In this document: positions 31,091 through 47,706 of the stretch, piece after piece
Layout: each line of letters starts with the position of its first letter
Position numbering within the stretch: the stretch's first letter is position 1
From: Catellatospora paridis
GTDB taxonomy: Bacteria > Actinomycetota > Actinomycetes > Mycobacteriales > Micromonosporaceae
NCBI RefSeq assembly: GCF_009720365.1
Contig: NZ_ML769313.1
Span: 1-64,000 of the forward strand
Reading direction: 5' to 3'
DNA: 64,000 nt
The notes under the pieces: generated by a model
Databases searched by the model: none
The model's input: only the letters and a program-made list of their open reading frames with translations
Told to the model about the DNA's origin: nothing
Program-made: the position numbers and the translations under genes

Positions 31091-32548
31091 ATGCGAATTG
31101 TCCCAGTGGTGCGTGATGTCAGGTTCTGGAGCGCCACGCTGCTGGCGGGCGCACTGCTGCTGGGCGGGTGCACGGGGTCGCCGCCGCCCGCCCAACCGGG
31201 GCCGATGGGCATCGAGCCCGGCCTGGAGGGCGACACCCCGGCCGAGGTCGACCTGGCCGGCATCGGCGACCCGTACTTCCCGAGCTACGGCAACGGCGGA
31301 TACGACGTCGCGTCGTACGCGCTGAAGGTGAAGTTCGACCCGGCCTCCGGGCGGCTCGACGGCACGGCCACCGTCAAGGCCAAGGCCACCGTGCCGCTGG
31401 ACCGCTTCCACCTGGACCTCATCGGCCTCACCGTGAACTCCGTCGTGGTCGAGGGGGATCCGGCCGAGGTCAAGCGGGACCGCGACGAGCTGGTGATCAC
31501 GCCGTCGAAGCACATCGACTCGGGGCAGGCGTTCACCGCCGTCGTCACGTACGGCGGCAACCCGGGGGAGACCCGCGAGCGCGACGCCGACCACAACGGC
31601 TTCTTCGTCGGGCGCGACGGCGCCGTCGCGGTCGGCGAGCCGCAGTCCGCGGCGGCCTGGTTCCCCGTCAACGACCACCCGCGGGACAAGGCGCTCTACA
31701 CCATCGACCTGACCGTGCCGAGCAAGCTCAGCGGGCTGAGCAACGGCGTGCTCAAGGGGAAGAAGACCGACGGCGACTGGACCACCTGGAGCTGGAACGT
31801 CACCTCCCCGATGGCCTCCTACCTGGCCACCATGGTCGTCGGCGACTACCGGGTGACGCAGACCGAGCACCGGGGCAAGCCGGTGATCTACGCGATCGCG
31901 TCGAGCGTCCCGGCCGGCGAGGCCGACCGCAACCTGGCGCGGACGCCCGAGGTCGCCGACTTCCTGGAGAGCCTGTTCGGGCCCTACCCGTTCGACGCGT
32001 ACGGCGGCATCGTGGTCGGCGACAACCGGGTCTCCGACGAGCTGGAGAACCAGACCCGCCCCATCTACCTGCCCAAGACCTGGCAGAAGGGGCCGGACAC
32101 GATCATCCTGGCGCACGAACTGGCGCACCAGTGGTTCGGCGACAGCGTCTCGGTGCAGAACTGGCGCGACATGTGGCTCAACGAGGGCTTCGCGACGTAC
32201 GCGGAGTGGCTGTGGGACGAGCACCAGGGCGGCCGCACCGTGCAGGAGCACTTCGACCGGCGCTACCGCGACCGCAAGGACCGGATGTGGCGGGTGCCGA
32301 CCGCCGACCCCGGCAGCGACGGCATCTTCTCCAGCAGCGTCTACGAGCGCGGCGCGATGACCCTGCACGCCCTGCGCAAGCTCGTCGGCGACGAGAAGTT
32401 CTTCACCATCATGCGCACCTGGACCGCCGAGCAGCGCGACGGCAACGCCAGCACCGCCGAGTTCGTGACCCTGTCCGAACGCATCGCCGGCCGCCCCCTC
32501 GACGCCTTCTTCCAACCCTGGCTCTACGGCAAGACCCGCCCCGAATAG
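31091..32548 (+). CDS. M1-family zinc metallopeptidase, lipoprotein
   Basis: 485 residues. Lipobox LLGGC with lipidated Cys27. Beta-sheet N-domain, then zinc site HELAHQWFGDS with His342 and His346 and the third ligand Glu365 (WLNEGFATY), 18 residues on, as in gluzincins. ELENQ near 315 corresponds to the GAMEN exopeptidase loop. It ends soon after the catalytic domain, lacking the large helical C-domain of PepN-type enzymes. Anchored on the outer membrane face, likely an aminopeptidase. Only 19 bp after glpD but functionally unrelated. Confidence 0.93.
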   Translation: MRIVPVVRDVRFWSATLLAGALLLGGCTGSPPPAQPGPMGIEPGLEGDTPAEVDLAGIGDPYFPSYGNGGYDVASYALKVKFDPASGRLDGTATVKAKATVPLDRFHLDLIGLTVNSVVVEGDPAEVKRDRDELVITPSKHIDSGQAFTAVVTYGGNPGETRERDADHNGFFVGRDGAVAVGEPQSAAAWFPVNDHPRDKALYTIDLTVPSKLSGLSNGVLKGKKTDGDWTTWSWNVTSPMASYLATMVVGDYRVTQTEHRGKPVIYAIASSVPAGEADRNLARTPEVADFLESLFGPYPFDAYGGIVVGDNRVSDELENQTRPIYLPKTWQKGPDTIILAHELAHQWFGDSVSVQNWRDMWLNEGFATYAEWLWDEHQGGRTVQEHFDRRYRDRKDRMWRVPTADPGSDGIFSSSVYERGAMTLHALRKLVGDEKFFTIMRTWTAEQRDGNASTAEFVTLSERIAGRPLDAFFQPWLYGKTRPE

Positions 32549-40573: not shown

Positions 40574-42807
40574 CCGTCAGACGCACTTCCTAGCGAGGTC
40601 AGCTCTGACTGTGTCCTAAGTGTGTCCGGATGTTGGGTTCCGAGGAGTCGAGACTGCTCGGCGAGAGTTTCTCTCAGCAGTGTCCGGGCTTCATCCAGTC
40701 GACCCACCATCCGCAGGGTGCAGGCGGTGAGATACGCCGAGCGCAACGTGTCGGGATCTTGGGCACCGAGCAGTGCCTGCTTCTCACTCAGTACCCTCTG
40801 GTGGATGTCAAGGCCACGGTCGATCTCACCCTGCTTGACGAGCACCAACGCAAGGTTGGTCCGGGCGGCCAACGTGTTCTGGTGAGGTTGCCCGAGGTGA
40901 GCCTCGGGGAAGTCGCGAACTGCGTGCTCGAGCAGCGCGCGAGCTTCGTCGAGTTCGCCCAGATCATATTTGACGCGCCCGAGGTTGTTCATCGACACCA
41001 GTGCGTCCGGATGTTTTGGGCCGAGAGTACGTTGTCGCACATTTAGAGTTCGCTGGTGGAGCTCCCCGGCCTCTTCGAGCAGGCCCGTTCGCCGGAAAAC
41101 GGTCGCGAGATTGTTCATGGCATTCAAAGTGTCGGGGTGCTCAGCGCCCAGAAGCTCTGTGCGGAGCGCGATGCACTCGGCATGAAGTGGTGCGGCGCTG
41201 TCAAAGTTGCCGATGTCGTCCAGGTAGTAGGCAAGCCAGTAGGTGAGGTCGGCTACTGTGCGTGTCCGCAGATCCACGCGTCTGCAGTGTTCCAGAACCG
41301 TCTCGGCGTGCGGCCGGAGCTTGGCACAACGCTCCCACTCATGCGTCTGGCTACCTACCCAGCGCGGCCGCGGAAACGTGGCTTCCAGGAGTGTGGCTGC
41401 GCGTTTGATGAAGGCGCTCCTGCGCCGGGAGTGGCTGACCTCGGTCGTCACTACCAGTTGCAGCATGACGTGCATTTGGATGGTGCTGCCGGGTTGATCT
41501 ATCTGGACCAATGACAGGTCGTTGAGCACCGAGATCACCCTGTCGACCGAGTCAGGGTTGCGGAGCATCCCAGGCAGTAGATCGGTCGGTAGAGGTGCTG
41601 ATGCGAAATGTGCTAGCAGGTACAGCAGGTCGACTGCGTCAGTGTTCTGACTCTCTGCCTCTTCGATGCTCATGGACCACGTGCGGAATACGGGCAGCGG
41701 GTAGTTCGGCGGCTTCTTCGCCATGAATACCTGCTCCAGGCGGGTGGTTAGCCGAGAGAGGTATGCGACGTAGTCAATACCGGTGCTGTTGCAGTAGGCG
41801 GCTGCTTGTTCAAGGGCCAGCGGAAGGCCGCCGAGCTGTTCGGCGAGTTGCGCGGCACCTAGGGGGTTCCGCTGACCAGCGCGCCGTGCGAGGAACTCGG
41901 CTGACGACGTCGGGTCCAATGGTGCGACTCTGTGAGGTTGTACGGCGCCGCGCCAGTCCGCGTGGCGGGAGGTTATGAGTGTCACGCCACTGCCAGTGGT
42001 GGGCAACAGGCCTTCGATGGTCGTCGGGTCGCGGACATCGTCGTACACGAGGACGAATCCGGACAAGTTTCCGAGATGCATCAAGCACCTCTTTGCGTCT
42101 TCGGGCTTGTCGTCAGTGCTGGCGAGTCCCAGGTGTGCCAGGAGCTCGGTCAGCCCAGTGATCAGATATTCGCGGCGCGCAGCGTTGATAAACCACCCGA
42201 CTTCCACATCGGGTCGACTTAGATGGGCATGACGGAGTGCCAGTTGGGTCTTTCCGACACCGCCCATGCCGTGGATCGCTATCGCGCATGGTGACTGCTC
42301 TTCGGAGTACTTGCTGATCTCCTCCAGATCCGTCTCGCGTCCGGTGAAACTCCTGCACGGCTGGGGGATGTCCCAGATCCGGGCCAGCGAAGCGGGTGCA
42401 GCTGTGGCGGGCCGTGTTCTTGACTTTTCGAGCTGGTCCAAGGTTCCCTTCGCCACGAGCCCGGCCCCAAGGGTGGATACCGGAATCGCCAGGAACCACC
42501 ATGGATTGAGCAAACCGGCTATTCCGCTCGCCAATGCGCCGAGCCCCATGACAACAGCTATTCGAGTATTACGGCTGATCTTCAACAGAACCTCTGTGAT
42601 CACAGGTTTGCCGGAATGGCCGCTCGCTCCCGACAGGAAGGAGGCACCGATTCGGGTAAACGGCGGGGGCGAACGGGAGTCGCTATGGAAACGCTGCAGT
42701 ATCGGCTTCACGACTGTCAACGCAGAGGTATCGAGCAGGTGATTCTTGGCCGCAATGTGGGAACTGCTTGTGTTCGGTGTTCGGTGCTCGTCCCGGACCG
42801 GATTCAT
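40570..42807 (-). CDS. STAND NTPase: membrane hairpin, NB-ARC, kinesin-light-chain-type TPRs
   Basis: 745 residues from ATG 42807; start uncertain (TTG 42837, GTG 42603 also possible because the first 70 residues look unstructured). With ATG numbering: two hydrophobic segments at about 83-100 and 103-120, P-loop GMGGVGKTQ near 180-188, Walker B VLVYDD near 252-257, TLITSRHADW sensor; AAA lid; then from about 535 four 42-residue TPR_10/12 repeats (LGAEHPDTLNAMNNLATVF, LGPKHPDALVSMNNLG). Similar to TPR proteins of the FxSxx-COOH type and to STAND immunity proteins, but no known effector domain or FxsA partner. Markedly lower GC than its neighbours, suggesting acquisition. Function unproven: sensor/signal ATPase. 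Confidence 0.85.
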   Translation of the reverse strand: MNPVRDEHRTPNTSSSHIAAKNHLLDTSALTVVKPILQRFHSDSRSPPPFTRIGASFLSGASGHSGKPVITEVLLKISRNTRIAVVMGLGALASGIAGLLNPWWFLAIPVSTLGAGLVAKGTLDQLEKSRTRPATAAPASLARIWDIPQPCRSFTGRETDLEEISKYSEEQSPCAIAIHGMGGVGKTQLALRHAHLSRPDVEVGWFINAARREYLITGLTELLAHLGLASTDDKPEDAKRCLMHLGNLSGFVLVYDDVRDPTTIEGLLPTTGSGVTLITSRHADWRGAVQPHRVAPLDPTSSAEFLARRAGQRNPLGAAQLAEQLGGLPLALEQAAAYCNSTGIDYVAYLSRLTTRLEQVFMAKKPPNYPLPVFRTWSMSIEEAESQNTDAVDLLYLLAHFASAPLPTDLLPGMLRNPDSVDRVISVLNDLSLVQIDQPGSTIQMHVMLQLVVTTEVSHSRRRSAFIKRAATLLEATFPRPRWVGSQTHEWERCAKLRPHAETVLEHCRRVDLRTRTVADLTYWLAYYLDDIGNFDSAAPLHAECIALRTELLGAEHPDTLNAMNNLATVFRRTGLLEEAGELHQRTLNVRQRTLGPKHPDALVSMNNLGRVKYDLGELDEARALLEHAVRDFPEAHLGQPHQNTLAARTNLALVLVKQGEIDRGLDIHQRVLSEKQALLGAQDPDTLRSAYLTACTLRMVGRLDEARTLLRETLAEQSRLLGTQHPDTLRTQSELTSLGSASDG

Positions 42808-42926
42808 AATTTGGCGCAAGGGTATGAATGCGCGCAAGTCGTCAGCGGTCGCCGGCTCCTATGACGGGCAGTCAGGTGACAGGCGATCGCGCCTGCCACC
42901 TGAGCCCACCGTTCGTTATCCGGGCC

Positions 42927-44159
42927 TCACCCAAGATCTGCTGCGCGCGCATCCACGGCACCGCATATCGCAGCCAAGGCTTGGGCGTACGGCATCGGCG
43001 GCAGCTGCCGCCCGTCGCGCAGCCGCAGCGAGACCTCGCCGGAGTCCGCCTCGCGGGCGCCGATGACGGCCAGGTAGGGCACCCGGCGCTGGGCGGCCTC
43101 GCGGATGCGCAGCCCCAGCGACCCGTCGAGGCTCAGCGACGCCCGCAGACCGGCGCGCAGTGCCTGCTCGGCGAACAGCCGTGCCGCCGCGTCCTGCGCC
43201 TCGCCGACCGGGGCGACGGCCAGCTGCACGGGGGCGTACCAGACCGGGAACGCGCCCTGGTGCACCTCCAACAGGTGGGCCAGCAGCCGTTCCATGCTGC
43301 CGACGATGCTGCGGTGCACCATCACCGGCCGGGCCGGGTTGCCGTCGCGGCCGGTGTACGACAGGTCGAAGCGCTCCGGCTGGGCGAAGTCCACCTGCAC
43401 GGTGGCCAGGGTCGACTCCCGCCCGGCGAGGTCGCGCACCTGGATGTCGATCTTCGGCCCGTAGAACGCGGCCTCGCCCGGAGCCTGTTCGAACGGCACC
43501 CCGGCCTGCACCAGGGCGTCGCGCAGCAGCGCCTCCGCGCGGGCCCAGTCGGCATCCGCGCCGAGGTAGCCCGCGCCCGGCCCGCGCAGCGACAGCCGGT
43601 AGCCGTCGGCGGCGAAGCCGAGCGCCGGGTGGATCCGCGCGCACATGGCCAGCACCAGCGCGACCTCCGCGCCGACCTGGTCGAGCGAGCAGAACACGTG
43701 CGCGTCGTTGAGCGAGATCGCTCGCACCCGGCTCAGCCCGCCGACGACGCCGGAGCGTTCGGCGCGGTACATGCCGCCCAGCTCGGCGATGCGGACCGGC
43801 AGCTCGCGGTAGGAGCGACCGCGGGAGCGGAACACCATCGCGTGGTGCGGGCACAGGCTCGGGCGCAGCATCAGCGCCTCGGCGTCGTCGGCGGGCGCGG
43901 CGGGATCGTCGGACATCGCCGGGAACATGTCGTCGGCGAACTTCGCCAGATGCCCGGACCGCTCGTACATCTGGCGTTTGGCCATCGGCGGGGAGTAGAC
44001 GTGCTGGTATCCGGCGAGGCGTTCCTCCTCGCGGACGAACTCCTCGATGGCGTGGCGGGCGGCGGCGCCGGCGGGCAGCCACAGCGGCAGGCCCGCGCCG
44101 ATCATCGGGTCGGAGTGGTAGATCTCGAGTTCGCGGCCGAGGCGGCGGTGGTCCTTCAC
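42927..44159 (-). CDS. thrS: Threonyl-tRNA synthetase core lacking TGS and editing domains
   Basis: 410 residues versus about 640-690 for bacterial ThrRS. It starts directly at the class II core (LEIYHSDPMIGAGLPLWLPA) and keeps motif 1, motif 2 (YRAERSGVVGGLSRVRAISL), motif 3 (HRSIVGSMERLL) and the zinc ligands Cys103, His154 and His282, followed by the anticodon-binding domain. The N1/TGS and N2 editing domains are absent from the sequence upstream, which instead holds a regulatory leader. GTG 44159 has GGGAG 7 bp upstream. Probably a second, non-editing ThrRS; auxiliary synthetases of this kind can confer resistance to synthetase inhibitors (inference). Confidence 0.9.
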   Translation of the reverse strand: MKDHRRLGRELEIYHSDPMIGAGLPLWLPAGAAARHAIEEFVREEERLAGYQHVYSPPMAKRQMYERSGHLAKFADDMFPAMSDDPAAPADDAEALMLRPSLCPHHAMVFRSRGRSYRELPVRIAELGGMYRAERSGVVGGLSRVRAISLNDAHVFCSLDQVGAEVALVLAMCARIHPALGFAADGYRLSLRGPGAGYLGADADWARAEALLRDALVQAGVPFEQAPGEAAFYGPKIDIQVRDLAGRESTLATVQVDFAQPERFDLSYTGRDGNPARPVMVHRSIVGSMERLLAHLLEVHQGAFPVWYAPVQLAVAPVGEAQDAAARLFAEQALRAGLRASLSLDGSLGLRIREAAQRRVPYLAVIGAREADSGEVSLRLRDGRQLPPMPYAQALAAICGAVDARAADLG

Positions 44160-44212
44160 GGTGTGCTCCCTGGGAGTGAAACGGCCCGGCCACCCGTGGG
44201 GCGGATACGCGC

Positions 44213-44240
44213 CGGCCCCGGGGCGTGTGCCCCGGGGCCG
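44213..44240 (-). terminator. Attenuator terminator hairpin upstream of thrS
   Basis: Perfect 12-bp stem CGGCCCCGGGGC with complement and 4-nt loop, between the leader ORF stop (44265) and the thrS start (44159). Placed as an intrinsic terminator in a transcription attenuator. Confidence 0.72.
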
Positions 44241-44264
44241 ACGGTCGACTGAAAGATCAGCAGG

Positions 44265-44324
44265 TCAACGCGTACGAGCGCCGGGACGTCCCGGCGTCGT
44301 CGTGCTGACCATGTGCTGATGCAT
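44265..44324 (-). CDS. Threonine-rich leader peptide of thrS
   Basis: 19-codon ORF MHQHMVSTTTPGRPGARTR. Three consecutive Thr codons (ACG ACG ACG) at positions 8-10 and a fourth at 18. An in-frame ATG at 44336 would add four residues (MVLG). It ends 105 bp before thrS. Ribosome stalling at the ACG run under low charged tRNA-Thr would change folding downstream and prevent terminator formation, as described for auxiliary trpS1 of Streptomyces with Trp codons. RBS is weak. Confidence 0.65.
   Translation of the reverse strand: MHQHMVSTTTPGRPGARTR
44279..44296 (-). promoter_or_regulatory. Leader palindrome directly after the Thr codon run
   Basis: CGCCGGGACGTCCCGGCG, an 18-nt perfect palindrome inside the leader ORF whose 5' side overlaps the last ACG codon of the Thr run. 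Probably the first hairpin that a stalled ribosome would block. Confidence 0.6.
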
Positions 44325-44420
44325 ACCGAGCACCATAGCGTGGCCGCCGCACCCTGGGGCAAGCGATATCGGTCACCGAGGTACCTTCGGATCGAGGAGT
44401 CGATCACCCGGGGGTGAACG

Positions 44421-44807
44421 GTGGCGCACTGGTACGAGTCGAGCATCGACAGGCAGATCCGTGAGGCGCAGGAGCGCGGCGAGTTCGACGACCTGCCCGG
44501 CGCGGGCAAGCCGCTGCCCGGGGCGGGCGAGACGCTGCACGACGACTGGTGGCTGCGCGACCTCGTCCAGCGGGAGAACCTGTCCGGGGCCATCCCGGCC
44601 ACCCTGCTGCTGCGCCGCGACGTCGAAGACCTCCCTGACGCGCTCGCGAACAAGAACTCCGAGCAGGCGGTACGCGCATACGTCGCGGAACTGAACGCGC
44701 GGGTGGTCCGCGCGCACCGGGGCGAACTGGCCGGTCCCGCGGTGGCCCTCGCCCTGGTCGACGCCGACGACGCGGTGCGCCAGTGGCGCGCCCGCCGCAC
44801 CCGCTGA
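44421..44807 (+). CDS. DUF1992 (DnaJC28-like) protein
   Basis: 128 residues. The DUF1992 signature covers residues 5-75: YESSIDRQIREAQERGEFDD, LPGAGKPL, then DDWWLRDLV. Found as a stand-alone bacterial protein (YhdN-like region of DnaJ homolog C28); function unknown. GTG 44421 has GGGGGTG upstream. Divergent from the thrS leader; stops 4 bp from the convergent hydrolase stop. Confidence 0.9.
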   Translation: MAHWYESSIDRQIREAQERGEFDDLPGAGKPLPGAGETLHDDWWLRDLVQRENLSGAIPATLLLRRDVEDLPDALANKNSEQAVRAYVAELNARVVRAHRGELAGPAVALALVDADDAVRQWRARRTR

Positions 44808-46431: not shown

Positions 46432-47706
46432 TCAGGCGTCGCGCAGCAATGGGCAGGTCATGCAGTGGCCGCCGCCGCGGCCCTTGCCGATCTCGAACCC
46501 GTCGATCTCGACGACCTCGATGCCCGCCTCGCGGTACTTGCGGTTGCTGTAGACGTTCTTCGAGTACGCCACGACCACGCCGGGGGACAGCGCGACCACG
46601 TTGTTGGCGCAGTCCCACTGCTCGCGTTCCTGCTGGGCCTCGTCGCCGCCGGTGGTGATGACCCGCAGTTCCTTCTCGTGGGACAGCCCGATGGCGTGCG
46701 CGACGGCGGCCAGGAAGCTGTCCTCGGCGGTGACGTCGAGCGTGCCCGCTTTGTCGCCGGGGCGGATGCTGTACGCCGTGGTGCCGTCGACGACCTTCGG
46801 GTAGACGGTGACCGTGTCGCGGTCCATGAACGTGAACACCACGTCCAGGTGCATGAACTGGCGCTTGCGCTCCAGCTGCACCGCGATGATCCGTTCGGCC
46901 GCGCCCTTGGCGAACAGCCGCTGCGCCAGGATCTCCACCATCTGCGGGGTGGTGCGCTCGCTGATCCCGATCAGGACGGTGCGGTTGCCGACTGGCATCA
47001 CGTCCCCACCCTCGATCGACGAGCGCCCGAAGGACTGTATGTCGAACTCGTCGTGCTCGTCCTTGCCCGCGTCCGGGAACCAGAAATTGATCTTCTCTTG
47101 CCGGAACATCGGGTGGAAGCGGTACACCGTGCCCAGGTTGACGGTCTCCAGCTGGCGCGACGGCCAGTACATCGGGTTCAGCGAGACGCCCTCGTAGATC
47201 CAGCACGAGGTGTCCCGGGTGAACAGGTGGTTGGGTAGCGGCGGCAGGATGAACGACGAGCCGACCGTGGTCGCCACGGCCAGTGAGCGCGCCGCGAGCC
47301 GGTCGTCGTCGGCGAACTGCATCAGCTCGGCCCGGGTCACCCCGCCGGTCAGATGCGTCGCGAGGGTCTTGGGGTCCATGTTGGCCAGCGCCTCGCGCAC
47401 CGCGTCGACCATGGCCGGACCCACCGTGTACGGGCTGACGGTGTGCCCGATGACCCACTCGCGCGCCTCGGGCGAGGACAGGGCCTCGGTGAGCAGGTCG
47501 TGCAGCAGGAACACCTCGATGTCGCGGGCCCGCAGCTCGGCGACGAACTGGTCGTGCTCCTGCTGCGCCCGCTCCACCCACAGCACGTCGTCGAAGAGCA
47601 GCTCGCCCCGGTTGGACGGGGTGAGCCGGCGCAGCGCCAGGTCGGGGCGGTGCACCAGCACCTTGCGCAGCCTGCCGACCTCCGAGTGGACTCCGAATCC
47701 GGTCAT
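46432..47706 (-). CDS. arcA: Arginine deiminase
   Basis: 424 residues, full length. Guanidino-modifying enzyme motifs: LFTRDTSCWI (Asp), SIEGGDVM (Glu), FMHLDVVFTF (His, Asp) and catalytic Cys415 in GGGHCMTCPL. Converts arginine to citrulline and ammonia. No arcB or arcC next to it, so a solitary enzyme here. Start ATG 47706 preceded by GAAGGAG. Confidence 0.95.
   Translation of the reverse strand: MTGFGVHSEVGRLRKVLVHRPDLALRRLTPSNRGELLFDDVLWVERAQQEHDQFVAELRARDIEVFLLHDLLTEALSSPEAREWVIGHTVSPYTVGPAMVDAVREALANMDPKTLATHLTGGVTRAELMQFADDDRLAARSLAVATTVGSSFILPPLPNHLFTRDTSCWIYEGVSLNPMYWPSRQLETVNLGTVYRFHPMFRQEKINFWFPDAGKDEHDEFDIQSFGRSSIEGGDVMPVGNRTVLIGISERTTPQMVEILAQRLFAKGAAERIIAVQLERKRQFMHLDVVFTFMDRDTVTVYPKVVDGTTAYSIRPGDKAGTLDVTAEDSFLAAVAHAIGLSHEKELRVITTGGDEAQQEREQWDCANNVVALSPGVVVAYSKNVYSNRKYREAGIEVVEIDGFEIGKGRGGGHCMTCPLLRDA

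Follow-up and report, generated by a model that had tools for sequence, protein, structure and literature searches.

Short threonyl-tRNA synthetases without editing domains behind a conserved threonine-codon leader in actinobacteria: a probable backup enzyme under attenuation

In Catellatospora paridis a second threonyl-tRNA synthetase (ThrRS) gene was found, whose product lacks the editing domains and which is preceded by a leader open reading frame with a run of threonine codons and by two hairpins. It is located in the 64,000 nucleotides of contig NZ_ML769313.1 which were analysed here and are called the window in the following (Table 1). As read from the sequence, this anatomy is that of a classical attenuator. 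It is conserved in relatives and, in 61 genomes of the family Micromonosporaceae, linked exclusively to the short enzyme. We consider it probable that the short protein is a stress-inducible backup ThrRS under ribosome-mediated attenuation, by which charged tRNA-Thr would be sensed.

Table 1 Features of the short ThrRS locus in the window
Feature	Position	Strand	Basis
Short ThrRS, 410 aa, GTG start, catalytic and anticodon-binding domains	42927..44159	-	open frame, Pfam, NCBIfam
Shine-Dalgarno-like GGGAG ahead of ThrRS start	44166..44170	-	read from sequence; placed by position of GGGAGCACACCGTG
GC hairpin core GGCCCCGGGGC-ACAC-GCCCCGGGGCC, terminator-like without U-tract, stem continuing outward	44214..44239	-	sequence, folding, covariation
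Leader ORF including stop codon, 19 codons, MHQHMVSTTTPGRPGARTR	44265..44324	-	sequence reading; conserved in relatives
Hairpin P1 (CGCCGGGACGTCCCGGCG), 18-nt palindrome overlapping third Thr codon	44279..44296	-	sequence reading, relatives compared
ACG ACG ACG, putative regulatory codons	44295..44303	-	sequence reading
-10-like element TATGGT, 7 nt before leader ATG	44332..44337	-	sequence reading; leaderless transcript probable
Putative -35-like TTGCCC, 19 nt before -10	44357..44362	-	read from sequence
GATATC, 5/6 match to WblC box GAAAWY, same position as in relatives	44365..44370	-	motif from PMC7157823

The initial annotation had described the gene product as an editing-less class II ThrRS core of 410 residues with all zinc ligands, and domain and motif searches agreed with this description. 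Only the Pfam domains tRNA-synt_2b and HGTP_anticodon were detected; TGS/N1 and N2 editing domains, which bacterial ThrRS usually carry, were absent, both by reading of the sequence and by Pfam search. With 431 bits against a cut-off of 384 the protein was recognized by the NCBIfam equivalog TIGR00418 (thrS); on its sequence we classify it as the core of a ThrRS and not as a complete bacterial enzyme. The zinc ligands C103, H154 and H282 are present and, like the motif 2 and motif 3 arginines of class II, invariant in all 32 aligned short forms. The top solved-structure match by sequence was the ThrRS of S. aureus. The predicted model is middling (mean pLDDT 72, pTM 0.70, residues 89-151 below 50), and its TM score of about 0.74 to ThrRS catalytic fragments confirms the ThrRS fold only.

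A short protein of this kind might act outside translation and supply a different pathway with threonyl adenylate or Thr-tRNA. Other roles of truncated synthetases are described in PMC9437257, and no gene neighbour common to all loci, which would demand a role in translation, was found (the largest cluster of open reading frames, shadow frames included, occurred in 49 of 157 loci). Such a role is nevertheless very improbable, as the protein retains motif arginines, zinc ligands and anticodon-binding domain and passes the cut-off of TIGR00418. Furthermore, no neighbour, compared as clusters of open reading frames, recurred in most loci within 1.5-3 kb.

A search for a full-length thrS besides the short gene had been suggested as a check, and such a copy was detected elsewhere in the genome. 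Its open frame of 695 aa shares 37% identity with the short form over the core and carries the editing motifs HSTAH and CRGPH; this motif check covered the window's own genome only. Thus, the short form is a second, editing-less ThrRS, and the possibility that it is the only ThrRS of the genome is ruled out. In a tree of 108 ThrRS cores, calculated with a quick method and with long branches present, the 40 short forms grouped in a single clade (SH-aLRT 99), separated from the housekeeping gene. Short cores and rows below 49% identity without editing motif, including L196, were left out of this tree. A recent truncation of the housekeeping thrS is ruled out by the 37% identity together with the separate clade.

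The existence of a 19-codon leader with ACG ACG ACG upstream of the ThrRS gene, as initially annotated, could be confirmed. It begins with an ATG at 44324, 165 nt upstream of the ThrRS, and its TGA ends at 44265. For the window alone, a mini-ORF with three consecutive Thr codons was obtained in 1.25% of the shuffles. In the family such a mini-ORF was present in 91 of 93 upstream regions of 260 nt, whereas shuffles gave an expectation of 0.63; a chance origin of the leader was rejected by this control. ACG accounts for 409 of the 432 codons of the Thr run and for 54 of 211 Thr codons (26%) in eight window ORFs, which were picked as likely genes for codon comparison. A search of the window in Rfam gave no match to a known element. 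Elsewhere in the window an open reading frame was seen at 46432-47706 on the minus strand, presumably that of an arginine deiminase.

For the comparison of relatives, 155 short-ThrRS loci of Micromonosporaceae, Streptomyces and other actinobacteria were used, a few of which had been fetched twice (L029/L104, L189/L222, L106/L224). The full-length L120 and L194 with editing motif were left out of the leader counts; L123-L126, L128-L136 and L138-L183 (distant, full-length or unclear) as well as L197-L213 were left out of the leader, hairpin and promoter counts. At least three Thr codons in succession were found in the leader of 149 of the 155 loci, and two in three further loci (L049, L080, L241). 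The run was missing in two loci, L106 and L224, which are identical over 600 nt and represent one Streptomyces sequence with the GC hairpin present and the leader missing. The remaining locus, L092, is cut by a contig end. In all 149 loci the leader ends ahead of thrS, and 133 distinct peptides are encoded. The conservation of leader, Thr codons and both hairpins, suggested initially as a check, was consequently found across actinobacterial families.

Among 144 distinct leaders the first codon of the run is ACG in 127, ACC in 16 and ACT in one case, the second ACG in 139, ACC in four and ACT in one, and the third ACG in 143 and ACC in one. A synonymous non-ACG codon occurs in 22 of these leaders, compared with three loci in which one Thr was lost. 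This ratio is indicative only: the leaders were selected by their Thr codons, so that non-Thr codons are missing by construction and the two-Thr loci are the known losses. The run is followed by Pro in 145, Gly in three and Ala in one of the 149 loci. Hence, the proline can change while the Thr run stays.

A covariance model (R1) was built from 70 loci and searched in the 61 family genomes, yielding 39 matches with E below 1e-6. Upstream of the gene, 38 of them were found in 38 of 38 genomes with short thrS, many of which belong to the training set and match by construction. The 39th match, in genome G001, lies upstream of a frameshifted short thrS. At this locus (L248, G001:C1 near 5785968) an intact leader stands before a gene broken by a frameshift or an assembly error. 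In the 61 genomes no match below 1e-6 was detected outside short-ThrRS loci and none at a full-length thrS, whereby a leader shared with other genes was rejected. Weaker matches were numerous (E 5e-5 and up); two of them, L275 and L276, were inspected and neither is a Thr leader. In L276, at about 2180-2310 (G004:C1 near 2765198), a GTG-start leader with Phe-Tyr-Gly-Tyr-Tyr-Gly codons is followed by a GC hairpin with T-rich tail, as seen by eye. By its codons it is perhaps an attenuator for aromatic amino acids.

Short forms were identified in 94 of 150 Micromonosporaceae and 74 of 150 Streptomyces genomes, counted at an identity of 52% or more without second copies and without the frameshifted copy of G001 among the 94. 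They also occur in Kitasatospora, Nocardia, Amycolatopsis, Actinocrispum, Rhodococcus and Antribacter. In a phylum sample of 396 genomes short forms were rare; the window's own and at least 11 others were among the best 30 matches. In each of the 94 family genomes the query had one or more further matches, which may represent a ThrRS or a different class II synthetase.

The 121-nt leader RNA folds at z = -8.7 relative to shuffles. Its first hairpin, P1, corresponds to the palindrome which had been noticed to overlap the ACG run; in the window and in relatives the 5' arm of P1 overlaps the regulatory Thr codons. P1 is nearly invariant, with few compensated changes in 89 distinct segments, for example in L094 and at the loop end of the stem. 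Covariation is limited because P1 is so conserved. With RNAalifold P1 was not recovered on a mixed alignment, apparently due to a shift of its 3' arm by the aligner. In the window and its near relatives L017 and L020 (these by eye), TCAGCA before the Thr run is complementary to TGCTGA after the leader stop, which extends P1.

The second hairpin had been regarded as a GC stem terminator. A strong GC hairpin was indeed found, but it lacks a U-tract. Accordingly named terminator-like here, it has a core of 11 bp about 40 nt ahead of the Shine-Dalgarno-like GGGAG, so that the ribosome site is not covered by it. A consensus terminator scan of 42800-44700, which requires a U-tract, found none. The U-tract is mostly missing in relatives as well: the 9 nt behind the hairpin contain no more than 4 T in 138 of 149 loci and five or more in 11. 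In the 70 loci of the alignment, seven of eight consensus pairs of this hairpin showed changes on both sides. The motif CGTCGT, whose complement ACGACG is part of the Thr run, was observed at or just after the hairpin in 34 of 149 loci (background 0.8%); it lengthens the terminator stem in some loci, and not in the Streptomyces loci looked at.

The pairing required for antitermination exceeded composition shuffles only modestly (mean z -1.27). Folded as stalled nascent RNA, 133 of 134 loci formed it, and so did 91% of the shuffled controls; this test therefore does not discriminate. When ten loci were folded at full length and the Thr run was masked, the terminator prevailed in every one. Hence, any antitermination would be kinetic, unless the mechanism differs in detail. 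Loci with long or distant terminators and near-copies were left out of the nascent-fold set.

Upstream of the leader, TAnnnT was present 6-8 nt before the in-frame start in 149 of 149 loci, a generous figure, as the starts were chosen with TAnnnT in view; with the farthest ATG taken as start it was present in 84 of 91. By this spacing the leader mRNA is probably leaderless. For thrL of S. lividans a leaderless transcript was reported by RNA-seq (PMC8079986). An A/T-rich box is found about 32-33 nt before the -10 element. The exact motif GAAAWY occurred between -36 and -28 from the -10 element in 41 of 149 loci, compared with 0.15% in shuffles and 2.5% before other TAnnnT of the same loci. Allowing up to one mismatch, the numbers were 97 of 149, 3.0% and 20%. 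Counted as distinct promoters, the latter motif was found in 58 of 91 Micromonosporaceae, 32 of 42 Streptomycetaceae and 4 of 13 others, and no exact GAAAWY was detected in these 13 promoters outside both families. The window's own genome encodes a WhiB-family protein with the C-terminal AT-hook RGRPRK (L282, contig C13, 155365-155511). We take the AT-hook as the hallmark of WhiB7 and this protein as a likely WblC/WhiB7.

The WblC site of S. coelicolor is GAAAWY, located 3 nt upstream of -35 (PMC7157823), compared with a 5/6 match in the window. According to Table 1 of that study thrS2 of S. coelicolor is activated by WblC, the regulon being defined under tetracycline, and the gene of WblC itself is subject to uORF attenuation (PMC7157823). 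We infer that thrS2 is a short form. The WblC-like box and the WblC-dependent thrS2 suggest a general stress by translation antibiotics rather than a ThrRS inhibitor. In one form of this idea, WblC would be the main control and the leader a general sensor of translation stress, triggered by any slow ribosome, such as one slowed by sub-inhibitory antibiotics, with the Thr run as a handy pause site. The box, the tetracycline-defined regulon with thrS2 and the attenuation of the WblC gene would all fit. However, a generic pause needs no cognate codon, and two or more consecutive Thr codons stand before the ThrRS in 152 of 155 loci, where the run persists when the next residue changes. We therefore consider a general sensor unlikely and prefer a stress-inducible enzyme whose leader responds to charged tRNA-Thr.

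The initial annotation had suggested a role against a ThrRS inhibitor such as borrelidin or obafluorin. As in the producers of borrelidin or of obafluorin (ObaO), the short form would be an inhibitor-resistant second ThrRS, switched on when the housekeeping enzyme is blocked. Auxiliary resistant synthetases are known, e.g. TrpRS1 for indolmycin (PMC9437257). Residues of the fourth borrelidin subsite vary among the short forms (positions 73, 74 and 259). Furthermore, changes of L489 raise the Ki of borrelidin in E. coli (PMC4389257), and at the equivalent position all 32 short forms carry Gln, Lys or Arg. However, both ThrRS enzymes of the window's genome have Gln there, so that this residue does not separate them. 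Resistance to obafluorin and borrelidin was reported upon change of Gly463 to Ser or Ala (PMC11252418). ObaO, likewise a second ThrRS, carries Ser there (PMC11252418), whereas Gly was found in all 32 short forms, and also in the housekeeping enzyme; Ser and Ala were absent. The proposed role against an inhibitor was not supported by this unchanged position. With 94 of 150 genomes of the family and 74 of 150 of Streptomyces, the distribution is also wide for the self-protection of one producer. Resistance is quite unlikely as the function of the short form; judged by sequence, a backup enzyme for translation stress fits better.

For this backup enzyme the following course is proposed. From a promoter with a WblC/WhiB7-like box, an mRNA would start with the leader AUG or no more than two bases from it. 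If Thr-tRNA is plentiful, the ribosome would pass ACG ACG ACG and reach the stop codon, and the GC hairpin would halt RNA polymerase before thrS. If it is scarce, the ribosome would wait at the ACG codons and mask the 5' arm of P1. The freed 3' arm (CCCGG) could then pair with the 5' arm of the terminator (CCGGG) during transcription, and thrS would be read. The short ThrRS would charge tRNA-Thr without proofreading of its own, and the full-length ThrRS could clear Ser-tRNA-Thr in trans. We infer termination, antitermination and editing in trans, and for the window locus also leaderless start and control by WblC; that Thr-tRNA is sensed is suggested by the codons alone.

In Streptomyces the auxiliary TrpRS of the trpS1 type is controlled by attenuation. 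It is likewise a second synthetase behind a leader with its own cognate codon; the amino acid differs. The analogy drawn in the initial annotation is apt in the sense that both would work alike, and in the window's own genome the gene of a second TrpRS follows a leader that contains two Trp codons (L287, contig C3, about 31321-32073, minus strand). This leader, MRTTNTMWWLP, with a downstream GC-rich repeat (by eye), looks like a trpS1-type attenuator. Thus, the pattern is not unique to threonine. The second enzyme of the trpS1 type is resistant to indolmycin (PMC9437257); no parallel signature was found in the short ThrRS.

The closest known case is thrL-thrS of S. lividans TK24 (SLIV_19412/SLIV_19410), in which a leaderless leader MKRVRPFLETTPGFVPAR precedes a ThrRS gene as described here (PMC8079986). 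It resembles the leader MKRACSSLMTTPGTPAR of the short-ThrRS locus L241, and from this likeness SLIV_19410 is probably a short form. That report gives thrL as a single annotation, counts two Thr codons and leaves termination unclear, and its sections available make no mention of a lost editing domain, relatives, covariation or WblC (PMC8079986). Similarly, a Thr attenuator is not mentioned for thrS2 of S. coelicolor in the sections available of the WblC study (PMC7157823). ThrRS T2 of Anabaena is comparable as a second, editing-impaired ThrRS which is expressed under stress and whose partner edits in trans (PMC4787780). T2 keeps a damaged editing domain and is controlled by Zur (PMC4787780), whereas the short ThrRS of the window is without N1/N2.

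Hence, thrL of S. lividans (PMC8079986) and the control of S. coelicolor thrS2 by WblC (PMC7157823) are already in print. As far as covered by the source, an actinobacterial survey of 2005 contained no conserved threonine element (PMC1262725). On Thr attenuators or editing-less actinobacterial ThrRS only thrL of S. lividans was found in the literature searched, with subscription papers mostly outside the search. In the same literature we found no report that the editing domain is missing, that leader and short enzyme are linked throughout the clade, or that a WblC box occurs together with a Thr leader.

In S. lividans leaders were described as thrL, trpL2 and alaL (PMC8079986), and in S. coelicolor thrS2, alaS2 and trpS are activated by WblC (PMC7157823). 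The synthetases linked to these leaders are presumably the same genes in both species. This points to a combination of stress control by WblC and cognate attenuation in several backup synthetases. Tentatively, and as a possibility we hold somewhat doubtful, thrS2, trpS1 and alaS2 may be members of a group of backup synthetases under a two-input gate, consisting of a WblC/WhiB7 stress promoter and a cognate-codon attenuator. If so, a synthetase would be made only where its tRNA is short. By making a ThrRS without proofreading, the cell would then give up fidelity to secure supply, except if the housekeeping enzyme takes over editing in trans. The ThrRS without proofreading form an entire clade, which is found in common antibiotic-making soil bacteria and, in nearly all loci seen, behind a likely sensor of its own product. 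It thus becomes testable whether Ser-for-Thr errors are tolerated under translation stress or are cleaned up by the old enzyme.
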